Position numbers and translations under genes: made by a program. Shown one piece after another: positions 3,368-62,638 of a DNA stretch of 64,000 nucleotides. The notes under the pieces were generated by a model. It was not told the DNA's origin. It did no database searches and was given only the letters and a program-made list of their open reading frames with translations. Each line of letters begins with the position of its first letter. Position 1 is the stretch's first letter. The DNA lies in NCBI RefSeq assembly GCF_026619415.1, contig NZ_JAOVZR010000001.1, positions 3,208,501 to 3,272,500 of the forward strand, in the 5' to 3' direction. This DNA comes from Hoeflea algicola. Lineage in GTDB: Bacteria > Pseudomonadota > Alphaproteobacteria > Rhizobiales > Rhizobiaceae.

Positions 3368-5833
3368 CTAGCTGCCTCTGGGCTTGGTGCGCCGGGTTGG
3401 ATCGGCCAGCGCCGGGTTTTCGGGCCAGGGATGGCGGGGATAGCGGCCGCGCATCTCGGAGCGGACATCAGCCCACGAGCCGGCCCAGAACCCCGGCAGA
3501 TCCCGGGTCGTCTGAATCGGTCGATGCGCCGGCGAGAGTAATTCCAGTGTCAGCGGCAACCGGCCGCCCGCAATGGCAGGATGGCGGGTTTCGCCAAAAA
3601 GCTCCTGCACGCGGATTGCCAGCACGGGTGCAGCCTGATCGTAGCGGATCGGAATCCGCGACCCGGTCGGCGCCTCGTAGTGGGTTGGCGCCAGCCGCGC
3701 AATCTCGCTCTGCGCGGCCCCGCCGCACAATGCCAGCAGACCCTGGTTGAGCCCGTCGCGGTCAATCGTCTTGAGCGACATCACTCCGGGCTGAAACGGT
3801 GCGAACCAGCTCTCCAGACTGTCGAGCAGCGCCTGGTCGGACACATCCGGCCAAGGTGCTCCAAGGCTGCGGTGCAGAAAACCAACCCGGTCGCGCAATT
3901 GTTGCCCGGCGGCGGAAAATGGCAGCGCCTTGAATCCGAGCTTGCGAATTCCGGCGCACAGCGCCGCCATCGCCTCCGCACCGGCGACAGCGGGCAGCGG
4001 CGCTTCGGCCAGCACGATGGCGCCCAGCCGGGTCACGCGCCGGGCCCGCACCGCGCCGGCATCGCTGTCAAACAGGTATTCTTCGCCGGCTGTCGAGCGC
4101 TGTTCCAGTATTTCCGCGAGCGCCTCGCCCGACAGTTCCGCTGCCGCCAGAATCCGCGCCGCCGCGGCTTTGCCGCTGAGATCGGCGATCACCAGGAATT
4201 CGGCGCCAGCCAGCCTTTCGGCAACATCCATCACTGCACCGCGCCCGTTGGCCATGACAAACCGCCCGCGCCCGCCGCGCTGTTTGGCGATCCGGTCAGG
4301 AAAGGCGGTGGCCAGCAGTGTCGCCGCGGAAATCGGGCCGCCATGCGACTTGGCGGCCTTGCCCCCGGCCAATCGCGCCGCCAGTCCTCGTGCGGCGGTT
4401 GCCCGAGCGCCACGATCATTCCGGAAGCGGGACAATCTGGTGTCAAGGTCGATGTCCAGCCCGCCGAGGCCCTGCTCGGTGAGCACCACGGCAAGCTCGG
4501 CAGCGTCCTGGCCAAACCCCTCATTCTGGCCGGCCACCACCATCGCCGCCAGCCGCGGCGGCAGTGCCTGTGCGCGCATGCGTTCGCCGCGTTTGGTCAA
4601 GGCGCCATTGGCGTCGAGCGCGCCGAGGTCGCTCAAGAGACGTCGCGCCTCTTCCAGCGCCGGTTCCGGCGGCGGGTCGATGAAGCGCAGGGTGCGCGGA
4701 TCGCGAACTCCCCATGCGACACAGTCGAGCAGCATCGCCGACAGGTCACTCGCCAGAATCTGCGGAACCGAAAAAGCCGGCAAAGCCTTGCTCTGTTCGG
4801 CTCGCCATAGCCGCACGGCAATGCCCGGCCCGGTACGCCCGGCGCGCCCGGCGCGCTGATCGGTGGAGGCGCGTGAGGCGCGAATGGTTTCCAGCCTGGT
4901 AATGCCGGTTGCAGGTTCATAGACCGGTTGCCGAACCAGCCCGCTGTCGATGGCGATGCGCACGCCGTCAATGGTGATCGAGCTTTCGGCCACCGGCGTC
5001 GACAGCACCACCTTGCGGCGGCCCTTGGCTGCCGGCTTGATCGCCGCGTCCTGCTCGGCCGAGCTCAAACCGCCATAGAGCGGCTGGATATCTGTATCCG
5101 CGCCAAGCCTGTCTTCAAGCCGCTTCGCCACCTGCCTGATTTCGCCCTGGCCGGGCAGAAATGCGAGTATCGAGCCGGCTTCCGAGCTATGCAGCGTCTC
5201 GATCGCCCGCGCCATGGTGATTTCAATCCGTTCGCCCGCAGGCCGGTCGGTATGCCTGATTTCGACAGTATGGCTGCGGCCCTGGCTTTCGATCACCGAA
5301 CAACCATCCAGCAACTTTGCCACCCGCTCGGTGTCGAGCGTCGCCGACATCACCAGAATGCGCAAATCCTCGCGCAGACCAGACTGGATATCGAGCGCCA
5401 GCGCCAGGCCGAAATCTGCCTCCAGCGCGCGTTCGTGAAACTCGTCGAAGATCACGCAATCAATGCCCGCCAGATCGGCGGATGCCAGCGCCATGCGGGT
5501 AAACACGCCTTCGGTCACCACCTCGATACGGGTTTGGGCCGAAACCCGGGTGTCGAGCCGCATCCGGTAGCCCACGGTTGCGCCAACCTCTTCGCCGAGC
5601 ATCGACGCCATTCGCCGCGCTGCCGCCCGCGCCGCCAGTCGCCGTGGCTCGACCAGGATGATCTTGCCGCCGAGCCAGGGTTGATCGAGCAACACCAGCG
5701 GCACCAGCGTGGTCTTGCCGGCACCCGGTGGCGCCGCAAGTACTGCGTTGGGCGCCGCCTCGAGCGCCGCACACAAAGCCGGCAGCGCGTCGGAAACCGG
5801 CAGCTCGGCATGCCGAGCTGCGATGTCGCTCAC
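3368..5833 (-). CDS. hrpB: ATP-dependent helicase HrpB
   Basis: DEAH-family helicase of the HrpB type; its physiological role in bacteria is not firmly known. Walker A APPGAGKTT at about 34-42, Walker B variant DEFH at 130-133, SAT motif (VMSATLDTERV), and motif VI QRAGRAGRTGPG. The HrpB-specific C-terminal region follows, ending in a Trp- and Pro-rich stretch (PGFWAGSWADVRSEMRGRYP) typical of the family. Length 821 fits. The start is a GTG at 5833 whose first bases overlap the TGA of the upstream ABC ATPase gene (GTGA), implying translational coupling. An operonic link to a transporter is odd functionally and may only reflect gene packing. Confidence 0.93.
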   Translation of the reverse strand: MSDIAARHAELPVSDALPALCAALEAAPNAVLAAPPGAGKTTLVPLVLLDQPWLGGKIILVEPRRLAARAAARRMASMLGEEVGATVGYRMRLDTRVSAQTRIEVVTEGVFTRMALASADLAGIDCVIFDEFHERALEADFGLALALDIQSGLREDLRILVMSATLDTERVAKLLDGCSVIESQGRSHTVEIRHTDRPAGERIEITMARAIETLHSSEAGSILAFLPGQGEIRQVAKRLEDRLGADTDIQPLYGGLSSAEQDAAIKPAAKGRRKVVLSTPVAESSITIDGVRIAIDSGLVRQPVYEPATGITRLETIRASRASTDQRAGRAGRTGPGIAVRLWRAEQSKALPAFSVPQILASDLSAMLLDCVAWGVRDPRTLRFIDPPPEPALEEARRLLSDLGALDANGALTKRGERMRAQALPPRLAAMVVAGQNEGFGQDAAELAVVLTEQGLGGLDIDLDTRLSRFRNDRGARATAARGLAARLAGGKAAKSHGGPISAATLLATAFPDRIAKQRGGRGRFVMANGRGAVMDVAERLAGAEFLVIADLSGKAAAARILAAAELSGEALAEILEQRSTAGEEYLFDSDAGAVRARRVTRLGAIVLAEAPLPAVAGAEAMAALCAGIRKLGFKALPFSAAGQQLRDRVGFLHRSLGAPWPDVSDQALLDSLESWFAPFQPGVMSLKTIDRDGLNQGLLALCGGAAQSEIARLAPTHYEAPTGSRIPIRYDQAAPVLAIRVQELFGETRHPAIAGGRLPLTLELLSPAHRPIQTTRDLPGFWAGSWADVRSEMRGRYPRHPWPENPALADPTRRTKPRGS

Positions 5834-52945: not shown

Positions 52946-53147
52946 CATAGGTGTGCGCTGGCTTTCTGCAACTGGACCCGTTCCAGGCAGAATGAGTTCA
53001 CGAATGCATGCCGTGTTCAAATGGATTATTTTGAGCGATTACGTGCATGCGTTGATTCAAACATTCAGCGTTCGTTGCGTATTCAGTTGAATGCACGGCG
53101 CTGTAGGAAGGCCGCAGCAAGGCGGCCGCCAAAGCAGGGAGAGACTT

Positions 53148-54170
53148 ATGCGAGTTCTAGCTTCAGTGGTGTCGCGCGCAGCGACCGCAGCGCTGTTTGC
53201 CGCGACCTTGGTGGTCGGGGCAGCCGGTGTTCAGGCCCAGGAAATGAATTTCTTCACGATCGGCACCGGCGGTACCGGCGGTACCTATTTCCCGCTTGGT
53301 GGCGCCATCGCCAACTCGATTTCCAACCCGCCCGGTTCACGCGGCTGCGATGAAGGCGGTTCCTGTGGAGTTCCCGGCCTGGTCGCGGTGGCACAGTCCT
53401 CGCGCGGCTCGGTGGCCAATGTCAACGGCATCAAGTCGGGCATCATCAGCTCCGGCTTTTCCCAGTCCGATGTTGCGTTCTGGGCCTATTCCGGCACCGG
53501 CACTTTCGAAGGCCAGGAGCCGATGGAGGACCTGCGCGCCATTGCAGCGCTTTATCCCGAGCATATTCACCTGGTCGCCTCCAAGGCATCGGGCATCACG
53601 TCCGTGGCTGATCTCAAAGGCAAGCGTGTCTCGCTCGATGAGCCTGGTTCGGGCACCTATGTCGATGCGCAGCTGATTCTCGAAGCCTTCGGCCTGAGAG
53701 AAGCCGACATCACGGTCGAAAACCTCAAGCCGGGCCCGGCCTCCGACGCCATCCGCAACGGCCAGCTTGATGCGCTGTTCTTCGTTGGTGGCTATCCGGC
53801 AGGCACGCTTGTCGAACTCGCCTCCAGCGCCGATGTGACGTTGGTTCCGATTTCCGGCCCGGAAGTGGATTCGATGCTGGAAACCTACTCGTTCTTCTCC
53901 AAGGACCCGATTCCGGATGGCGTCTATCAGGGCGTTGCCGGAGCAGACACGGTTGCCGTGGGCGCCCAGTGGCTAACCAGCGCCACACAGAAGGATGAGC
54001 TGATCTACGAGATCACCAAGGCATTGTGGAACGACAGCACCCGCAAGCTGCTCGATGTCGGCCACGCCAAGGGCAAGTCGGTCAATCTCGAAACCGCGCT
54101 CGAAGGTATCGGCATCCCGCTGCACGCCGGCGCCGAAAAGTTCTACCGTGAAGCCGGCCTGATCAAATAG
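53148..54170 (+). CDS. TAXI family TRAP transporter solute-binding subunit
   Basis: 340-residue periplasmic binding protein of the TRAP-associated extracytoplasmic immunogenic (TAXI) family. Signal peptide MRVLASVVSRAATAALFAA ending GVQAQ. Hallmarks: FFTIGTGGTGGTYFPLGGAIANSIS and the SLDEPGSGTYVDAQLILEAFGL block. Imports carboxylates or unknown solutes with the fused permease downstream, using sodium or proton gradients. ATG 53148 follows AGGGAGAG; the frame opened earlier at 53091. Confidence 0.93.
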   Translation: MRVLASVVSRAATAALFAATLVVGAAGVQAQEMNFFTIGTGGTGGTYFPLGGAIANSISNPPGSRGCDEGGSCGVPGLVAVAQSSRGSVANVNGIKSGIISSGFSQSDVAFWAYSGTGTFEGQEPMEDLRAIAALYPEHIHLVASKASGITSVADLKGKRVSLDEPGSGTYVDAQLILEAFGLREADITVENLKPGPASDAIRNGQLDALFFVGGYPAGTLVELASSADVTLVPISGPEVDSMLETYSFFSKDPIPDGVYQGVAGADTVAVGAQWLTSATQKDELIYEITKALWNDSTRKLLDVGHAKGKSVNLETALEGIGIPLHAGAEKFYREAGLIK

Positions 54171-54195
54171 CGGCGAGCGGCCACCACTGAACAAG

Positions 54196-54219
54196 GGCCG
54201 TCCGGGTAACCGGGCGGCC
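54196..54219 (+). repeat. Strong GC stem-loop between TAXI genes
   Basis: GGCCGTCCGG (54196-54205) with CCGGGCGGCC (54210-54219), loop GTAA, one U-G wobble. No T tract. Fits the stabilising hairpin often left after a binding-protein gene to raise its message over the permease. Confidence 0.55.
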
Positions 54220-54363
54220 ACATTTGTCTAGAGCGCTGCATGGGCAGACTGAGCCATGCCGGTTGAGCCTTAGGGCTCCCGCCCAGCCGACGCCCGCTCT
54301 GGCAGCGAAAATGCAGAATTCAATCAATCCGACCGTAAAACGTGCCAGAGCCGGGAACACTCC

Positions 54364-56403
54364 ATGAGCCAGACCGACGATCCAGTTATCGACCTTGCCG
54401 AACTCGAGCGCAAATATGATCCGGAGATGGCTTTCCGGCCCACCGGCAAGGCCGTGGCGCTGCTGGTGACCGTCGCACTGGTCGCCATGTCGCTCTATCA
54501 TTATTATGCAGCTGGCTTCGGTCTTGTGCGCGAACTGGTTCATCGCGGCATCCACGTGTCCTTCGTGCTTGGCCTGATCTTCATCGTATTTGGCGCAACT
54601 CGCCGCGAAAACGACACGCTCTATCCGTCCAGCCTGCTGCGTCCCGGCGGCATCGGCCTTTGGGATTGGGCGTTCAGCGGCTTGGCCGTCGTTGCCGCGC
54701 TCTATCTGCCGCTGTTGCCTGCCAGCGCGGTCTCTGTCCGGGTCGGCAATCCCTCAGCCTTCGACGTGTTCATGGGCACAGCGCTGATCCTTTTGACACT
54801 GGAAGCGTCGCGGCGCTCGATCGGCTGGACGCTGACCGCCATTGCCGTGGCCTTCATGGGCTACGGCCTGTTCGGGCAATACATGCCCGGCGTGTTCAGG
54901 CACCCCGGTGCGTCCTGGAGCGCGCTCGTCAATCACCTCTACATGACCGACCAGGGCATCTACGGCATCGCCGTCGGCGCGGTTGCCAAATATGTCTTCC
55001 TGTTCGTGCTGTTCGGGGTTCTGGCAACGCGCATCGGGCTCGGCAAACTGTTCATCGATACCGCCTCGTCGATCGCCGGGCGCTATGCCGGCGGTCCGGC
55101 CAAGGTGGCGATCTTTTCCTCTGCGCTGCTCGGCACCATATCCGGCTCCTCGATTGCCAACACGGTGACCACCGGTTCGCTCACCATTCCGGCGATGAAA
55201 AAGGTTGGCTACCGCCCGCATTTCGCCGCAGCAGTTGAGGCCACGGCCTCGACCGGAGGCCAGATCACCCCGCCGATCATGGGTGCTGCCGCCTTCATCA
55301 TGGTCGAGTTTCTCGAAATTCCCTACCGTGACATCGTCTATGCGGCGATGTTCCCGGCACTGCTTCATTATGTCGGCATTTTCGCCATGGTTCATTTCGA
55401 AGCCAAGCGCCTGGGCCTGCGCGGCCTGCGCCCCGACGAGATGCCGCAGATCCTCAAGGTGTTTACCGACAACTGGCTGGCGGTGATCCCGCTATTGGTA
55501 TTGATGGCGCTGATCCTGACCGGCAAGACCCCCGATTTCGCCGCTGTGTGGGGGATTACCGCCTGCGTCGTTGTTGGCTTCATCACCCCGCACAACCGGC
55601 TGACGGTGAAGGACCTGATCGAAGCTCTGACACTGGGCGCCAAATACGCGCTTGCTGTTGGCGCGGCGGCAGCCGTTGTCGGTATTGTCGTGGGCGTGGT
55701 CACGCTCACCGGCACGGCCTTCCGGCTGTCCTTCATCATCACCCAGACCGCCGCCAATATCGGCACCGTGCTGACCGCGCTGTTGCCGGCGGGGTTGGTG
55801 ACCGTGAATGCGCTGGCGCTGTTCTTCACCCTGCTGTTTACGGCCTTTGCCTGCATCCTGATGGGCGCAGGCATCCCCACCACGGCCACCTACATCATCC
55901 TGGTTTCAGTGGCAGCACCGGCACTGGCGCTGCTCGGTGTCGAGCCGCTGGTGTCGCATTTCTTCGTGTTCTACTACGGTGTGCTGGCCGATATCACGCC
56001 ACCGGTGGCGCTCGCGGCCTATGCGGCTGCCGGCATCGCCGGTTCCAACCCGTTCCAGACCGGCAACACGGCCTTCCGACTCGGCATCGCCAAGGCGCTG
56101 GTGCCTTTCGTGTTCGTCTATTCGCCGTCGCTGCTGATCGTCGCCCAGGGTTTCACCTGGGAAGCGTTCTTCATCACGCTCACCGGCGCCACCCTAGGGA
56201 TTGTTATGCTGGCCGGCGCCTTCACCGGCTTCGTGGTCGCACCGTTAAGCCGGATCGAGCGGATCTGGCTCGGGCTGGTGGCGCTGTTGTTCGTGGCGCC
56301 GGGGCTGACCACCATGGTGATTGGTGTGGTACTGGCGCTGCCGGTGTTCCTGCGCCAGGGCGCCATCTGGCTCAAGCACCGGCGCGAGGCCAGAGCGGGA
56401 TAG
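54364..56403 (+). CDS. TRAP transporter fused permease (4TM/12TM)
   Basis: 679-residue inner membrane protein joining the small DctQ-like (about residues 20-120) and large DctM-like TRAP subunits, as always seen with TAXI binding proteins. Large-subunit signatures: ALLGTISGSSIANTVTTGSLTIPAM, EATASTGGQITPPIMGAAAFIM and MGAGIPTTATYIILV. About 16-18 hydrophobic segments. ATG 54364, 193 bp after the binding-protein gene. Ends 13 bp from the convergent soeC stop, so little room for terminators. Confidence 0.92.
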   Translation: MSQTDDPVIDLAELERKYDPEMAFRPTGKAVALLVTVALVAMSLYHYYAAGFGLVRELVHRGIHVSFVLGLIFIVFGATRRENDTLYPSSLLRPGGIGLWDWAFSGLAVVAALYLPLLPASAVSVRVGNPSAFDVFMGTALILLTLEASRRSIGWTLTAIAVAFMGYGLFGQYMPGVFRHPGASWSALVNHLYMTDQGIYGIAVGAVAKYVFLFVLFGVLATRIGLGKLFIDTASSIAGRYAGGPAKVAIFSSALLGTISGSSIANTVTTGSLTIPAMKKVGYRPHFAAAVEATASTGGQITPPIMGAAAFIMVEFLEIPYRDIVYAAMFPALLHYVGIFAMVHFEAKRLGLRGLRPDEMPQILKVFTDNWLAVIPLLVLMALILTGKTPDFAAVWGITACVVVGFITPHNRLTVKDLIEALTLGAKYALAVGAAAAVVGIVVGVVTLTGTAFRLSFIITQTAANIGTVLTALLPAGLVTVNALALFFTLLFTAFACILMGAGIPTTATYIILVSVAAPALALLGVEPLVSHFFVFYYGVLADITPPVALAAYAAAGIAGSNPFQTGNTAFRLGIAKALVPFVFVYSPSLLIVAQGFTWEAFFITLTGATLGIVMLAGAFTGFVVAPLSRIERIWLGLVALLFVAPGLTTMVIGVVLALPVFLRQGAIWLKHRREARAG

Positions 56404-56416
56404 GCGTGGCTGCTGT

Positions 56417-57328
56417 TCAGCGGTTGCCGTAATAGAGCGACACGACGTGTTCAGCTTCGGCGAAGAACAGCCAGCGTTCGGCAAGCAGTCCAGCCAGCAT
56501 CGACAGGACGGCAATCAGGTTGACCAGCGCCGGTGCGTCGCTCAACCAGACCAGCGCCAAGATGGCCACCGGCACCACGCAGCCGAGCAAGAGCGCCAGC
56601 CGGCGCAAGCTGCGCGCATGTTTGCGGCCGATCCGGTGGACCATCTCCCGGGTCAGGTAATTGTCGCCTGTATGGGGTGTTTCCAGAAGCCGCACTCTGC
56701 CGATGAACCCGAGTCCGGTCGCCGTTTCAGGCGAGGAGCCGGTATCGCTCAGCCGCGACCGGCTGGCCCGCGCCCACCACAGCCATTTCGCCCCCCAGGC
56801 CAGCACCACCAGCACGATGCCCCAGAGTTCGGGGGCTTCATGTGTGCCAAGGGCGGAAGCCAGCAGCCAGCCGGAGCCGAGCGCGAAACCGCAATAGACC
56901 ACAGGCGTGAGCTGGCTGTTCCATTGCGGCACGGTCTTGAGCTGGGCATAGATCATCGAGGTGGTGAACACCGTTGCAGCCGCGCCAAATGCTGCCAACA
57001 GTCCCAGAAGCTGGTAGCGCAATCCGGTCGCCATCCAGATCAGCACGTAGATACCGAACAGGATCAGCGTTGCGATTGCGGCGATGCCTTCGCGCGATAG
57101 CCAGCTCGAGCGCCATTGGCTCAGCGCCCGCCAGGCCCGCTCGGGATGGCCGAGATGGAACGTGGATGCCAGCAGTCCCGCGACCGCAAGCCCGCCACCG
57201 ACAACTGAGATGAAAAACACCCATTCAGCAGAGGCTTCGACCGGAAACCCGAGGCCGATGAGAAAGATCATGCCAAGCCCGGCGCCTGACGTGACGGTAA
57301 AGAAAATGACGGAAACAGCGGGGTGCAT
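56417..57328 (-). CDS. soeC: SoeC-type sulfite dehydrogenase membrane anchor (DmsC-like)
   Basis: 303-residue NrfD/DmsC-type membrane subunit with about eight hydrophobic segments (MHPAVSVIFFTVTSGAGLGM at the start). Anchors the cytoplasmic SoeA-SoeB unit and passes electrons to quinone. ATG 57328 lies 4 bp after the soeB stop; the longer frame to 57421 is an overlap of soeB. Annotated elsewhere simply as DMSO reductase anchor; the SoeABC assignment rests on the adjoining subunits. Confidence 0.78.
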   Translation of the reverse strand: MHPAVSVIFFTVTSGAGLGMIFLIGLGFPVEASAEWVFFISVVGGGLAVAGLLASTFHLGHPERAWRALSQWRSSWLSREGIAAIATLILFGIYVLIWMATGLRYQLLGLLAAFGAAATVFTTSMIYAQLKTVPQWNSQLTPVVYCGFALGSGWLLASALGTHEAPELWGIVLVVLAWGAKWLWWARASRSRLSDTGSSPETATGLGFIGRVRLLETPHTGDNYLTREMVHRIGRKHARSLRRLALLLGCVVPVAILALVWLSDAPALVNLIAVLSMLAGLLAERWLFFAEAEHVVSLYYGNR

Positions 57329-57332
57329 GGGA

Positions 57333-58079
57333 TTATCCGAGTTTGTCGAGCGCGGCGTCGAGCCAGCCGAGGAAGCCGTCGACCTTCGGCATCGGTGCGG
57401 TGGCCGCCATTGGCTTTGCATCCGGCGTCGGGCGGGTTTTCGGCCGTGGAGGCAGGTACCGGTTGACTGGGCGTGTGCCCATCTCCGGCATCAATTCGAT
57501 GCCGCCACGTTCGGCCACAAGCTGCGACACATGAGAATCCGGATCGTTGAAATCGCCAAAGTGCCGCGCGCTGGAGGGGCAGGTGCGCACGCAAGCCGGA
57601 ATCCGGTCTTCTTCAGCCAATGTGTCGCTGTAGATTCGGTCGACACACAGGGTGCATTTCTTCATCACGTTTTCGACCGGGTCCATCTCGCGTGCGCCAT
57701 AGGGGCAGGCCCAGGCGCACAGGCCGCAGCCGATGCACATGTCTTCATCCACCAGCACGATGCCGTCTTCGCTGCGCTTGTAGCTGGCGCCGGTCGGACA
57801 CACGGTCACGCATGGCGCATCATCGCAGTGCAGACAGGATTTCGGGAAATGCACGATCTGCGCCGGGGCATCGTCAGGCGTGACCTCGAAGGTGTGGATC
57901 CGGTTGAGCCAGGCGCCGGAGGGATCGGCGCCATAGGCGTCGACATCGCTCAGGGGCGAAGCACCGGCGCTTGTGTTCCATTCCTTGCAACTGACCGCAC
58001 AGGCATGACAGCCCACGCAGGTATCGAGATCGATCACCAGCCCGAGCCGCTTGTTGGTGGTTGACGGCAGACTGGTCAT
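57333..58079 (-). CDS. soeB: SoeB-type [4Fe-4S] subunit
   Basis: 248-residue four-cluster ferredoxin-like electron-transfer subunit. Cysteine groups: CVGCHACAVSCKEW, CLHCDDAPCVTVCPTGA, CIGCGLCAWACPYGA and CTLCVDRI...PACVRTCPSSA. Starts at ATG 58079, the position where soeA would normally end by ATGA overlap. The frame upstream to 58208 is shadow. C-terminal 60 residues are Pro-rich and less conserved. Confidence 0.85.
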   Translation of the reverse strand: MTSLPSTTNKRLGLVIDLDTCVGCHACAVSCKEWNTSAGASPLSDVDAYGADPSGAWLNRIHTFEVTPDDAPAQIVHFPKSCLHCDDAPCVTVCPTGASYKRSEDGIVLVDEDMCIGCGLCAWACPYGAREMDPVENVMKKCTLCVDRIYSDTLAEEDRIPACVRTCPSSARHFGDFNDPDSHVSQLVAERGGIELMPEMGTRPVNRYLPPRPKTRPTPDAKPMAATAPMPKVDGFLGWLDAALDKLG

Positions 58080-60915
58080 GGCTTTTTCCCCCGCTAAAAG
58101 CCACCGTGTCCGGCGCAGGCCCAACCGGGCTTGTCTGTGCTGCGGTTGCCGGCAGGCTGCGTTCGCCCGACTGGTCCGGATCGCGCCGGATCGCCACGCG
58201 CAGGTCAAACCAGGCCGCCTGACCGGTGATCGGATCGGAATTGGCCCAGCGGCGTCCGTCGCCTTTTGGTGGCAACAGCTCGTCGATCAGGTGATTGAGC
58301 AGAAACCCGCGGGTTGCCTCCGGCGCGTCTTTGTCGAGCGCCCAGGCGCCGGCGCGCTTGCCAATGGCGTTCCAGGTCCACAAGGTTAACCCGTTGACCG
58401 CCTCCATGCGCCGGATGCGAACCCGGATCTCGCCCGAGGGCGAACTGACCAGCGCCCAGTCATCGTCGGCAAGACCCTGCTGGTCGCACACCGCGCCCGG
58501 CACATAGAGCGCGTTCTCGCCGTGGATCTGCCGCAGCCAGGCATTCTGCGAGCCCCAGGAATGATACATTGCCGCCGGCCGCTGGGTGATGGCGTGCAGC
58601 GGATAGCCGTCTGCCTCAGAGCCGTCGTCGGCAAATGGTGGATACCAGCACGGCAACGGATCAAAGCAGCGCTGGATCCGCTCGCGGTGATGTTCCGGCG
58701 GAACTGGCTTGGCCTTGCCCTCGGCAGAAAGCTGAAACTTGCGCAGCGGTTCGAGATAGAGCTGAAAAATGTTCTCCACCGGCCCTTCCTGCAGGCCATG
58801 TTCGATCGCCCAGTCGCTCCAGGCTCGGTTGGCGTGTTTGAAGTAGAGCGCTTCGGCCGGCAGATGCACCTGCGAGAAACCGCCATTGTCGATGTAGCGC
58901 TGGAGTTGATCGGGATTGGGTTCACCGCGGCCGGTCTTGGTTCCGTCCGCCCCGCGCCAGCCCGACAGCGGACCGACGCCGGGCTTGCGCTGGTGATGGA
59001 CGATATAATCGGCATAGTCCTTGTAAATGGCTGTGCCCTGTTCATCGACCATGCCCGGCAGCTTCAGCCGAGCGCCGAGATCGAGCAGCACGCTCTGGAA
59101 GCCGCGCACATCCCGGTCCGGTCCGACCACCGGCCAGCGGATCGAATCGCACAGCGCCTCAGGCTCGCTGATCGGCCTGTCGAGCAGCGAAATGCAGTCA
59201 TGCCGTTCGAGATAGGTGGTGTCGGGGAGGATCAGATCGGCGAATGCCACCATTTCCGAGGAATAGGCGTCCGAATAGATGATCTTGGGGATCACATAGT
59301 CGCCATTCTCGTCCTTGTCGGTCAGCATATCCATGACCGAAGATGAGTTCATCGACGAATTCCAGGCCATGTTGGCCATGTACATGAACAAGACATCAAT
59401 GCCGTAGGGATCGCGCGCATGGGCGTTGGAAATCACCATGTGCATCATCCCGTGGGCTGACAGCGGTGCATCCCAGGAAAATGCCTTGTCGATCCGCTCG
59501 GCGGTTTCGCCGTCGGCTTCAAGCAGCAGATCTTCCGGCCCGCGCGGATAGCCCAGATGCGGACCGGCGAGTGGCGTGTCGGCACAAGCTCCGCCATGCG
59601 GCCGCGGCTGACCGGCGACCGGGCGCGGATAGGGCGGCTTGAAGCGGAACCCGCCGGGGCGGTCGATCGACCCGACCAGGATCTGCAGCAGGTGCAGCGC
59701 ACGGCAGGTCTGGAATCCGTTGGAATGGGCAGAAATCCCGCGCATGGCGTGAAACGCCACCGGACGCCCGATCATCTGTTCGTGGCGTTTGCCCTTCATG
59801 TCGGTCCAGGGCTGGTCGATGATGACTTCGCGCTCGAATGCCGCCTCGGCGATTTCATCGGCGATGCGGGCAATGGTTGCAACCGAAATCCCGGTGCGCT
59901 CCGCCACCGCCGCCGGGGCATAGTCCGGATCAAGGTATTTGCCGGCCAGCAGCTCGAACACCGGTGTTGCCGACCGCCCGTCGGCCAGCGTGAACCGGCC
60001 TTTTAGTGCTGCCTTGATGCCGGGCGCCGACGATGCCGCGATCTCGCCGCTGTCACGGCTCGCCACCAGCGGCGTGCCATCCTCGGTCCGCGCGAACAGG
60101 CCGTGCCCGGCGCCGTCTGGATCGTCAATCACCAGCCACGGAGCATTGGTGTAGCGCAACAGATAGTCGACATCGATCTTGCCGGCGCGGAGCAATTCAT
60201 GCACCAGCGCCAGGATCAGCAGCCCGTCGGTGCCGGGTGTTATGCCCAGCCATTCGTCGGCGATGGCGTTGTAGCCGGTACGCACCGGGTTGACCCCGAT
60301 CACCTTGACGCCGCGCTCCTTGAGCTTGCCCAGCCCCATCTTGATCGGGTTGGAATCATGGTCCTCGGCGACGCCGAAAATCATGAACAGTTCCGTTTTC
60401 TCCCAGTCCGGCGCACCGAACTCCCAGAAAGCGCCGCCCATCGTGTAGATGCCGGCGGCCGCCATGTTGACCGAACAGAACCCGCCATGGGCTGCATAAT
60501 TCGGCGTGCCATAGGCCTGCGCCCACCAGCCGGTCATCGACTGGCTCTGGTCGCGCCCGGTGAAAAACGCCAGCTTGCGCGGATCGGTCCGCCGCACTTC
60601 GCCAAGCCATTCTGTGGCTAGCGTCAGCGCCTCGTCCCACTCGATTTCCTTGAATTTGCCCTCACCGCGTTCACCGGTCCTCAGCAGCGGCTTCTTCAGC
60701 CGCGCCGGCGAATAGTGCTGCATGATCCCCGCCGAGCCCTTGGCGCACAGCACACCCTTGTTGATCGGGTGGTCACGGTTGCCTTCGATGTAGTGAACCT
60801 TGTTGCCCTTGATATGCACATTGATGCCGCAGCGGCAGGCGCACATGTAGCAAGTGGTCTTGCGAATTTCGCTCTGGCCATCGGCGGCTTTGGCTGGCCG
60901 GCTGGTCTGGTTCAT
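57874..60915 (-). CDS. soeA: SoeA-type molybdopterin sulfite dehydrogenase large subunit
   Basis: DMSO-reductase family molybdoenzyme of about 945 residues plus an anomalous tail. N-terminal [4Fe-4S] motif CYMCACRCGINVHIKGNKVHYIEGNRDHP with GVLCAKGSAG; it lacks a Tat signal, fitting a cytoplasm-facing SoeA. FTGRDQSQSMTGWWAQAYGTPNYAAHGGFCSVN-type block, GVAEDHDSNPIKMGLGKLKERG and GITPGTDGLLILALVHELL match SoeA. SoeABC oxidises sulfite to sulfate with quinone. ATG 60915 with GGGGGAG site. The literal frame runs past 58078 into soeB; restoring one base in the G5A5 run (58082-58092) yields the expected TGA at 58078, overlapping the soeB ATG. Confidence 0.82.
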   Translation of the reverse strand: MNQTSRPAKAADGQSEIRKTTCYMCACRCGINVHIKGNKVHYIEGNRDHPINKGVLCAKGSAGIMQHYSPARLKKPLLRTGERGEGKFKEIEWDEALTLATEWLGEVRRTDPRKLAFFTGRDQSQSMTGWWAQAYGTPNYAAHGGFCSVNMAAAGIYTMGGAFWEFGAPDWEKTELFMIFGVAEDHDSNPIKMGLGKLKERGVKVIGVNPVRTGYNAIADEWLGITPGTDGLLILALVHELLRAGKIDVDYLLRYTNAPWLVIDDPDGAGHGLFARTEDGTPLVASRDSGEIAASSAPGIKAALKGRFTLADGRSATPVFELLAGKYLDPDYAPAAVAERTGISVATIARIADEIAEAAFEREVIIDQPWTDMKGKRHEQMIGRPVAFHAMRGISAHSNGFQTCRALHLLQILVGSIDRPGGFRFKPPYPRPVAGQPRPHGGACADTPLAGPHLGYPRGPEDLLLEADGETAERIDKAFSWDAPLSAHGMMHMVISNAHARDPYGIDVLFMYMANMAWNSSMNSSSVMDMLTDKDENGDYVIPKIIYSDAYSSEMVAFADLILPDTTYLERHDCISLLDRPISEPEALCDSIRWPVVGPDRDVRGFQSVLLDLGARLKLPGMVDEQGTAIYKDYADYIVHHQRKPGVGPLSGWRGADGTKTGRGEPNPDQLQRYIDNGGFSQVHLPAEALYFKHANRAWSDWAIEHGLQEGPVENIFQLYLEPLRKFQLSAEGKAKPVPPEHHRERIQRCFDPLPCWYPPFADDGSEADGYPLHAITQRPAAMYHSWGSQNAWLRQIHGENALYVPGAVCDQQGLADDDWALVSSPSGEIRVRIRRMEAVNGLTLWTWNAIGKRAGAWALDKDAPEATRGFLLNHLIDELLPPKGDGRRWANSDPITGQAAWFDLRVAIRRDPDQSGERSLPATAAQTSPVGPAPDTVAFSGGKSHDQSAVNHQQAARAGDRSRYLRGLSCLCGQLQGMEHKRRCFAPERCRRLWRRSLRRLAQPDPHLRGHA

Positions 60916-61224
60916 GCGCTCCCCCGCCTTCGTGCAACCCGTCTCCCGGGGGCGGCACGGCATTTTTCTGCCATCGCTGGCTTGCAAGCGTGCGCATCGG
61001 CGCCGCACCGCAAATGGGCATTGCGGCCAGTCAATTGTCAAGGCTGGGCGGTAAAGCCAGAATGCCTTTCGGTATGATCAGATTGGCGCTGAAAGGGGCC
61101 GAACAGCAGGATAGGCCGTTCAGCCCGCGGGCGTGGATCAGGGTCGGACGGCCCGAAATCGAGCGGGCAGGTGGCAATCGACACCCTGGGTCTGCGGCGG
61201 AAAGTTTTCAGGTTTCATGCGGAT
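60916..61224. other. Intergenic gap between soeA and its regulator gene
   Basis: 309 bp, both flanking genes on the minus strand. No open frame has recognisable homology. TTGACA on the minus strand at 61041-61036 is an isolated -35-like element without a good -10. No copy of the AT-rich regulator operator is visible here, so soeABC may be transcribed from the regulator promoter or from an unrecognised one. Confidence 0.5.
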
Positions 61225-61551
61225 CTAGCCCGCGAGCGCATTCCGGCGCGCGCAATAGAGCCCGTGCAACACTTCAAGCACGGCGGAAACTTCCTCGCCC
61301 TTGAGCGAATAATAGATGGTTTGCGCGTCACGCCGGGTGGCGACCAGATCGGCATCGCGGAGCTTGCGGAGATGATGCGACATCGCCGGTTGTGACAGTC
61401 CCGCCATGTCGGCGAGCCTGAGAACGCTTTGTTCGCCGTCCAGCAGGATACACAGAATCCGCAACCGTACCGGTTGCGACAGCATCTCCATCAGCTTCGC
61501 TGCTTCGCTCAGGCGCGGTTCCAATTCCAGCATGTCATGGGAATCCAGCAT
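61225..61551 (-). CDS. ArsR family regulator, SqrR/BigR-like persulfide sensor type
   Basis: 108-residue winged-helix repressor from ATG 61551 (the frame opens at 61641 without support). Recognition helix region LADMAGLSQPAMSHHLRKLRDADLVATRRDAQTIYYSL is ArsR/BigR-type. Two Cys only: Cys34 in RLRILCILLDG and Cys100 in LHGLYCARR, 66 apart, the spacing of Cys41/Cys107 in SqrR and Cys42/Cys108 in BigR, which sense persulfides by tetrasulfide formation. No metal-site Cys pair is present. It lies immediately before soeABC, so sulfur-responsive control is likely. Autoregulation is suggested by the overlapping operator. Confidence 0.82.
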   Translation of the reverse strand: MLDSHDMLELEPRLSEAAKLMEMLSQPVRLRILCILLDGEQSVLRLADMAGLSQPAMSHHLRKLRDADLVATRRDAQTIYYSLKGEEVSAVLEVLHGLYCARRNALAG

Positions 61552-61575
61552 CGGCGAAAGTCCGTTCCGTGAACA

Positions 61576-61616
61576 TTTATTTTCTCTTATATAAACAGCC
61601 CGGATTGAGGTTTCAA
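61576..61616 (-). promoter_or_regulatory. Sigma-70-like promoter with overlapping ArsR operator
   Basis: On the minus strand: -35 TTGAAA (61616-61611), 17 bp, -10 TATATA (61593-61588), about 37 bp before the regulator ATG. An AT-rich imperfect inverted repeat (61595-61576, arms TTTAT and ATAAA) covers the -10 and the start region; TTATATAA at 61587-61594 is a perfect 8-bp core. Placement predicts repression by the ArsR protein. The -35 lies inside the lacI-family gene's stop region. Confidence 0.6.
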
Positions 61617-62638
61617 CCGCCCACTCGGCGGGTGCTGTCACGGGCGATCAGTTCGACATCCATGACGGTCTTTTCCAGCATCAGCGCCGATGGTACTTTG
61701 ACATGCCGGATCAGCATTTCTGCGGACGAAACGCCAAGTGCGGTGCGTGGCTGCCGCACGGTGGTCAGCGCCGGGATGAAGCGGCAGGCGATGTCGATGT
61801 CGTCAAAGCCGACCACCGAGACATCTGCCGGGGTCGAAATCCCGTTGTGCGCCAGTTCCGAGATGAAGCCGAACGCCATCAGGTCCGACTGGCAGAATAC
61901 GGCGCTGGGGCGGTCGGAAAGGCTGAGCCAGGCGGAGGCCGCGCGCACCCCGGCTTCGATCGAGAAATCGCCTGCAAACAGATGAGCCGCAGAAAACGCC
62001 AGGCCGCGCGCCTTGAGTTCCTGATCAGCACCCTCGCTGCGGGTCATTGTCAGCACATTTTCATCGGGCCCGAGAACCATGCCGATCCGGCTGTGGCCTA
62101 GATCGAGCAGATGCGCGATCGCCAGCCGGGCGCCATGCACATTGTCGGCGCGCACGGATGGAAAACGATCCGACGTGGTCCATTCGCAGGCGAAAATGAT
62201 CGGCGGCGCGCCGATGCCCGACCGCGCCGCCGACAGCACTTCATCGGGCAGCGATCCGTCAAGCGCAATGATGCCGTCGGCGCGGCTGGCGTGCAGATAT
62301 TCCGACACCAACTGCGGCTTGGTTTGCACCTGCCGTGTGTCGACCACCAGCATGTTGAAGTCGGCTTTCGCCAGCGCCAACTCGATCCCGGCGAGGATTT
62401 CGGAAAAAAACGGATTGCCCAGGTTGGGCACCAGCACAACGATCGCGCCGGTGCGCTGGCGCCTGAGGTTGCGGGCCGAGAGATTGACCCTGTAGCCACT
62501 CTCCTCTGCTGCGGCCAGCACCGCATTGCGCGTTGATTCAGCGACTGTTTCCGGCTTGCTGAGCGCCCGGCTCACGGTTGCGGTGGAGACGCCGGCAAGC
62601 CGCGCGACATCGATGATTTTCGGTGCTCGTTTTTCCAT
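61613..62638 (-). CDS. LacI family transcriptional regulator
   Basis: 341-residue repressor. N-terminal helix-turn-helix IIDVARLAGVSTATVSRALSKPETV with hinge helix region RVNLSARNLRRQRTGAIVVLVPNLGNPFFSE, then a periplasmic-binding-like sensor domain (DFSIEAGVRAASAWL, VSVVGFDDIDIACRFIPALTTVRQPR). Divergent from the sugar ABC operon, with two LacI-type operators between them, so it most likely represses that operon. ATG 62638; ribosome site modest. Confidence 0.92.
   Translation of the reverse strand: MEKRAPKIIDVARLAGVSTATVSRALSKPETVAESTRNAVLAAAEESGYRVNLSARNLRRQRTGAIVVLVPNLGNPFFSEILAGIELALAKADFNMLVVDTRQVQTKPQLVSEYLHASRADGIIALDGSLPDEVLSAARSGIGAPPIIFACEWTTSDRFPSVRADNVHGARLAIAHLLDLGHSRIGMVLGPDENVLTMTRSEGADQELKARGLAFSAAHLFAGDFSIEAGVRAASAWLSLSDRPSAVFCQSDLMAFGFISELAHNGISTPADVSVVGFDDIDIACRFIPALTTVRQPRTALGVSSAEMLIRHVKVPSALMLEKTVMDVELIARDSTRRVGG

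Follow-up and report, generated by a model that had tools for sequence, protein, structure and literature searches.

Gene order of the locus

The window (64,000 nucleotides of Hoeflea algicola, the whole stretch that was analysed) carries on its minus strand the gene for a two-cysteine ArsR-family regulator (P0001, 61225..61551, 108 aa), characterised by translation and by profile and structure comparison. As a sequence-only reading had noticed, sulfite dehydrogenase genes lie beside it: soeABC follows downstream on the same strand, with soeA (molybdopterin subunit, 57874..60915, the frame of which runs on into soeB), soeB (4Fe-4S subunit, 57333..58079) and soeC (DmsC-type membrane anchor, 56417..57328, with a start inferred from the sequence). 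The domain set of SoeABC was recovered, with PF00384 and PF04879 in SoeA, Fer4 domains in SoeB and PF04976 in SoeC, and by eye the N-terminus of SoeA has no twin-arginine motif, i.e. the A subunit is without Tat signal. Relatives of SoeA at 70-75% identity are named SoeA by JGI in 8 of 120 cases among the matches listed; the other listed relatives are unnamed or carry general molybdopterin or dehydrogenase names. The three genes thus have the composition of a SoeABC sulfite dehydrogenase, with predicted activity.

In the window, soeA lacks the usual stop near the start of soeB; after a GGGGGAAAAA run, the frame enters soeB out of register (57874-58085, minus strand). In four other Hoeflea loci examined (L016, L018, L019, L021) the stop lies just before or at the soeB start, and its loss in the window reflects either a true indel or a sequencing error. 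Convergent with soeC, the region 53091-56403 (plus strand) encodes a fused TRAP permease (TIGR02123) together with what by eye is a TAXI-type binding protein; TRAP or TAXI genes are found past soeC on the opposite strand in all nine Hoeflea loci that extend beyond soeC. Upstream of the P0001 gene lies a gene for a LacI-type regulator (61613..62638, minus strand), which probably serves the divergent sugar-transport genes and stands outside the regulator/soe system. It is adjacent in Hoeflea loci L014-L023, but H. marina (L024), which also lacks the block before soeA described below, has it at a distance of about 5 kb.

The regulator protein

Translation of 61225-61551 (minus strand) yields exactly two cysteines, Cys34 and Cys100, 66 residues apart, as originally read. 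In HMMER alignments both fall on cysteines of BigR (3pqj) and of HlyU (4k2e, 5znx, 3jth), and SqrR (entries 13ct and 6o8k) was reached via an intermediate, the regulator of locus L222, the cysteines of which align with those of SqrR. The postulated equivalence with Cys42/Cys108 of BigR and Cys41/Cys107 of SqrR was therefore confirmed, for SqrR via the L222 regulator. The best solved relatives of P0001 are HlyU, BigR, NolR and YgaV. An AlphaFold model (mean pLDDT 86, pTM 0.75) predicts the ArsR winged-helix fold of the two-cysteine sulfane-sulfur-responsive ArsR subfamily (BigR, SqrR, SoxR, YgaV, HlyU), with Cys34 inside helix 27-37 and Cys100 directly past helix 86-99. Fold scores of the model were 16.5 for HlyU, 15.5 for BigR, 15.4 for SqrR and 15.2 for CzrA; as the last three are tied, the fold alone cannot separate persulfide from metal sensors.

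Two cysteines spaced by 66 residues are present in all 38 sequences with at least 65% identity to P0001, so that the arrangement is not due to chance. The same spacing is found in 85 of 92 sequences of the ArsR subfamily, including both nearest paralogues in the genome (L011, L012); the SqrR/BigR spacing pointed out at the start is thus well conserved among close relatives but, being widespread, not specific on its own. Nor is the number of exactly two conserved, six of the 12 Hoeflea-clade sequences (L013-L024) having a third cysteine at position 108. In an alignment of 32 sequences, out of 43 initially chosen, Cys34 is invariant and Cys100 is missing only from L041, which was trimmed at its end and has the equivalent cysteine in its untrimmed sequence.

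Against the NCBIfam BigR equivalog NF040642, P0001 scored 78.8 bits with a cut-off of 155, and it was therefore filed as BigR/SqrR-type and not as BigR itself. The two nearest paralogues were considered as the true BigR and rejected; by eye they sit beside haem-related genes, and queries with soe, blh, yeeE and SulP gave no match in either paralogue locus. Metal-sensing ArsR/SmtB proteins carry CXC ligands in helix 3. P0001, with Cys34 and Cys100 as its only cysteines, has no CXC motif, and most of its orthologues are linked to yeeE-blh-SulP (see below). Both observations speak against a metal sensor, or another redox sensor that shares the cysteine geometry only, a reading that draws on the tie in fold score with CzrA and other metal sensors, the wide occurrence of the 66-residue spacing and the missed BigR equivalog cut-off, and that we consider very improbable. 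Together, the comparisons support membership of P0001 in the two-cysteine sulfane-sulfur-sensing ArsR subfamily, from which we infer persulfide sensing itself.

Pairing of regulator and soeABC

The regulator lies directly before soeA, on the same strand, in all 18 Hoeflea genomes (the window genome and 17 others). A second genome scan found this order in 11 of 11 contigs (L014-L024), ten of them labelled Hoeflea, several of which probably duplicate the 18 genomes. The gap measures 309 bp to the soeA start in the window and 160-314 bp to the start of the soeA match across the genus.

For a survey beyond the genus, 289 genomes of the class were used, window genome included. Among the matches listed, soeA occurs in 73 of these and a regulator match (E ≤ 1e-12) in 113. 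Of 58 regulator matches in the 72 other genomes with soeA, at least four are found no more than 6 kb from soeA (in fact at about 3 kb or less), against 0.21 expected (Poisson P 7e-5, for a 6-kb limit that was set after the places were seen). As two of the genomes (G345 and G241) share a genus, the cases can also be counted as three events, with P 1.3e-3. Homologues adjacent to soeA, proposed as a target for a search, thus do exist in four other genomes of the class. In G327 (L221), one strand carries the regulator, rhodanese, TauE, Alph_Pro_TM, Usp, soeA, soeB and soeC in this order; G345 (L222) and G241 (L223) resemble it by eye, with middle genes that were not cleanly called and regulator cysteines 67 apart. 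In G121 (L224), a Blh gene comes after soeABC, and the regulator is convergent. A metagenome contig (L075) has a regulator convergent with soeC.

Outside Hoeflea, soeA is present in 43 relatives; a regulator match (E ≤ 1e-20) was obtained in 15 of these, in no case near soeA when places were compared by eye, and no regulator was found near soeA in 20 fetched non-Hoeflea soeA loci. The recurrence in four other genomes of the class and the absence from these relatives make the pairing uncommon but recurrent. The impression that it is less familiar than the sqr pairing agrees with the published record, in which we found no regulator-soeABC pairing; Table S1 of PMC12423496 may hold a case. The pairing is not described in the accessible sections of PMC12423496, PMC10451225, PMC5823870, PMC6620896 and PMC11507549, nor in those of PMC9774590, PMC7315123, PMC9995734, PMC6374484 and PMC5373536.

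Predicted operator

The predicted promoter of the regulator has the form TTGAAA-N17-TATATA on the minus strand, with its -35 at 61611..61616, overlapping the end of the upstream LacI-type gene, and its -10 at 61588..61593, 17 bp from the -35. By eye, TTGAA stands at the place of the -35 in Hoeflea loci; a sigma-70 scan did not report the -35 and -10. An AT-rich box extends from the -10 downwards and recurs in reverse before yeeE. This predicted operator (61566..61595, minus strand) overlaps the -10 and corresponds to the box found in the blh operon promoter and in intergenic regions between regulator and yeeE outside Hoeflea. The DNA singled out for gel shifts in the sequence-only reading (61576-61616) nearly coincides with this predicted promoter and operator.

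Fourteen non-Hoeflea loci were picked by hand, and 11 of their 12 distinct sites went into an operator matrix; L174, which gave no match, and a near-copy were omitted, and weaker or partial boxes of L029, L031 and L043-L045 (by eye) were not used. It was applied to the window plus four further stretches of the genome (about 116 kb, 231,718 positions, both strands). Scores were 43.2 bits for the blh operon promoter, 29.1 bits for the regulator promoter and 3.9 bits for the third best site. The regulator-promoter site is also the best of the locus in nine other Hoeflea regulator loci, seven of which score 21-30, with weak boxes in L016 and L018 (best scores 1.5 and 4.1), and the operators of six other Hoeflea blh loci score 26-42.

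Pattern searches were carried out on whole genomes, with patterns (first, genus-wide and looser) that were all drawn with the Hoeflea sites in view. Of the 16 Hoeflea genomes with blh, 15 have an exact blh-promoter site next to that gene and one, G002, has it on another contig; the regulator site shows no more than one mismatch in 16 of 18 Hoeflea genomes. In the genus-wide scan, 13 of 46 matches fell outside the regulator sites, the blh sites and a site in G008, where no blh was found; the reversed control gave 8. In the 5.18-Mb window genome, the first pattern gave two exact matches (regulator and blh), none at one mismatch and five at two, and its reversed control three; as it was drawn from the regulator and blh sites, only the absence of others is informative. 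The looser pattern gave three exact matches and six at one mismatch (control two), the latter scoring at most 10.9 bits. Its third exact match (L203 1499-1528, G000:C1 at about 2045660) precedes a DUF302 gene and scores 25.5 bits. This gene was considered as a shared third target and rejected: in 14 other Hoeflea genomes, the surroundings of the DUF302 genes (E ≤ 1e-20) reach scores of at most 9.5, with a different palindrome by eye, and the site is thus not a shared one.

The matrix is not fully specific, as seen from the DUF302 site and from other sites of 22.5-33.1 bits at a common locus in five Hoeflea. The latter site (L225-L229) lies between genes for thioesterase-like and TlpA-like thioredoxin proteins near argH (names by eye). 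In G036, of the same family (L178, minus strand, about 5346-5375), soeA has no adjacent regulator and an AT-rich palindrome of 13.1 bits lies about 115 bp upstream of it; control of this soeA in trans is possible.

The gap before soeA

In the gap between regulator and soeA no operator was found, the best matrix score being -18.0 bits (rank 537). Instead, it contains a promoter-like block of another type (61037..61081, minus strand), a direct repeat of 21 bp start to start followed by CTTGAC (CTGGnnYTA-N12-CTGGnnnYA-N9-CTTGAC), identified by pattern scan. Allowing 0-2 mismatches, 17 of 18 Hoeflea genomes have the block in front of soeA and at no other place, 16 of them as an exact match and the window genome with two mismatches; in the H. 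marina-type genome G009, the sole match lies elsewhere. It resembles a -35 with the direct repeat of an activator upstream; the sigma-70 scan did not report it. The repeat was considered as a box shared with other genes and rejected, its half pattern giving 16 matches and the control 35. Outside Hoeflea, no match was obtained in 20 loci with the strict pattern, a weak test, as this pattern also misses the degenerate copy of the window.

The sequence-only reading, in which the sensor would switch on SoeABC sulfite oxidation, was taken to mean direct repression of a soeA promoter that is relieved under persulfide or sulfite stress. Its adjacency to soeA and its subfamily are what this version has in its favour. 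It did not hold up against the placement of the predicted sites: conserved operators lie at the regulator -10 and at the unlinked blh operon, neither matrix nor pattern scans give a copy near soeA, and soeA has a block of its own. Direct repression of soeA is improbable on these grounds, and the persulfide dioxygenase operon, in trans, is on sequence grounds the better-supported target. Nothing observed speaks for sulfite as the signal.

The conservation of a block specific to soeA suggests separate control of soeABC and is the main evidence against its simple control by the regulator. The length of the gap also counts against a coupling of the two. The sensor could thus control itself and the blh operon, with soeABC run from its own promoter alone by another factor and the adjacency passive. 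To this we assign a minor but substantial share of the probability: the block, the gap devoid of operator and the relatives in which soeA has no such regulator nearby all point to it, but the order of regulator and soeA is kept in every Hoeflea genome, such neighbourhoods recur elsewhere in the class, and both genes are on the same strand with no terminator-like site found in the gap between them. One coding-strand terminator-like site lies inside the regulator gene (61479-61459), where shuffled sequences average 0.9 over the region. As the gap itself holds none, transcripts may read through into soeABC, and the safest model is one in which the regulator reaches soeABC, if at all, by such read-through.

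Origin of the regulator

Of 25 non-Hoeflea sequences with at least 65% identity to P0001, two of which (L037 and L175) are probably from one genome, 20 come from a fetched locus with blh, yeeE or SulP and five from one without them. Wherever open reading frames were mapped in these loci, the operon comprises a pair of YeeE-type half transporters, a Blh-type dioxygenase, in many cases a DUF442 sulfurtransferase, and SulP, with the regulator divergent from it.

A tree was calculated after exclusion of 20 chosen redundant sequences and of three sequences below 90 aa; with 110 columns, it has many unresolved forks. The 12 Hoeflea-type sequences form one clade with L025 and L177 (97/93), nested in a clade of 36 (99/94) with 19 members linked to blh, yeeE or SulP, 12 linked to soe and five linked to neither. 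Linkage to blh, yeeE or SulP thus holds for 19 of the 24 sequences in this clade that are not soe-linked. Neither soeABC nor blh adjoins L025 and L177, in the Hoeflea-type clade, or three Planktomarina-type sequences (L034, L036, L039). The tree thus shows, at the level of sequence, descent of the Hoeflea regulator from a mostly blh-linked clade. The regulators of L025 and L177 (74-81% identity) adjoin an acetate kinase-like gene (by eye), with no good operator match.

In the window genome, the blh operon lies at about 3.88 Mb of G000:C1 and the regulator at 3.27 Mb, so that the two are not linked as in a BigR operon. No adjacent regulator was found at the Hoeflea blh operon in seven of seven loci (L165, L167-L172); in the H. 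marina-type locus L172, blh is present with no yeeE or SulP detected. Family scans of the operon genes in the window genome matched DUF6691, Lactamase_B, Sulfate_transp and AhpC-TSA, and Sulf_transp with 26.1 bits, just under its cut-off of 27. Blh scored 375.6 bits against NF040641 over its dioxygenase part, where the cut-off of 625 is that of the two-domain protein.

Comparison with known systems

BigR of Xylella and Agrobacterium, encoded in an operon with blh and a TauE-related exporter, shares with P0001 the fold and the aligned cysteine pair, and most relatives of P0001 adjoin a Blh-type dioxygenase or its transporters, as bigR does blh. The accessible sections of PMC5823870 describe BigR as recognising the -10 region, which the predicted operator of P0001 likewise overlaps, and BigR operons as converting sulfide to sulfite and exporting it. 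In contrast to bigR, the Hoeflea regulator gene is unlinked from blh, precedes soeABC and forms no operon with a sulfite exporter. The BigR operon of Acinetobacter baumannii, with YeeE/YedE transporters and PDO2, has the gene content of the Hoeflea yeeE-yeeE-blh genes (PMC7315123, accessible part), but in Hoeflea no regulator adjoins the operon, which extends further into SulP.

SqrR of Rhodobacter capsulatus regulates sqr and a gene with a rhodanese domain (PMC9995734, as far as accessible), whereas none of the three best operator matches examined in the window genome (regulator, yeeE-blh, DUF302) is at sqr. SoxR and sHdrR of Hyphomicrobium denitrificans, an alphaproteobacterium, are two-cysteine sulfane-sulfur-responsive ArsR repressors of sulfur oxidation as well; they differ in their targets, sox and shdr (PMC12423496, PMC10451225, available portions). 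Section 2.1 of PMC12423496 places two-cysteine ArsR repressors near sqr, sox, pdo, rhd, shdr, RND, TauE, SoxT and PmpAB and does not name soe; in its accessible text, H. denitrificans is said to lack efficient sulfite-oxidising enzymes. For Beggiatoa leptomitoformis, the accessible part of PMC11507549 reports a working persulfide dioxygenase with no SoeABC detected, so that dioxygenase and SoeABC need not act together.

Proposed model and significance

The balance of the evidence leans slightly towards a model in which P0001 responds to persulfides and represses its own gene and, in trans, the blh operon, with soeABC coupled by read-through besides its own promoter. In its reduced form the repressor would bind the AT-rich operator, which covers its own -10 and, at the unlinked yeeE-yeeE-blh-SulP operon, the promoter. 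A sulfur bridge formed between Cys34 and Cys100 by persulfides or polysulfides would release it from the DNA, and derepression would turn on sulfane-sulfur import and Blh, the persulfide dioxygenase that makes sulfite. Transcripts from the regulator promoter would extend into soeABC, and the quinone-linked SoeABC enzyme could then convert Blh-derived sulfite to sulfate; soeABC probably has a promoter of its own in the 309-bp gap as well.

More broadly, and with the balance tipped somewhat against it, we tentatively propose that one persulfide sensor co-controls the making of sulfite by Blh and its respiratory burning by SoeABC. In Hoeflea, the regulator would have moved away from the blh operon to a place before soeABC, still acting on its former operon in trans by way of the operator that stayed there, and sulfite oxidation would stand in for the TauE export of the bigR operon. 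Similar wiring would have arisen independently in the regulator-rhodanese-TauE-Usp-soeABC and soeABC-blh clusters of other genomes in the class.

The sulfite made by persulfide dioxygenases is toxic, and the question at stake is how bacteria couple its making to its removal. If the proposal is true, one sensor would tie both together and add a quinone-linked sulfite dehydrogenase to the targets of two-cysteine ArsR proteins, and the operator retained at the unlinked blh operon would make this a clean case of a regulator that has moved with its old target still in its regulon.
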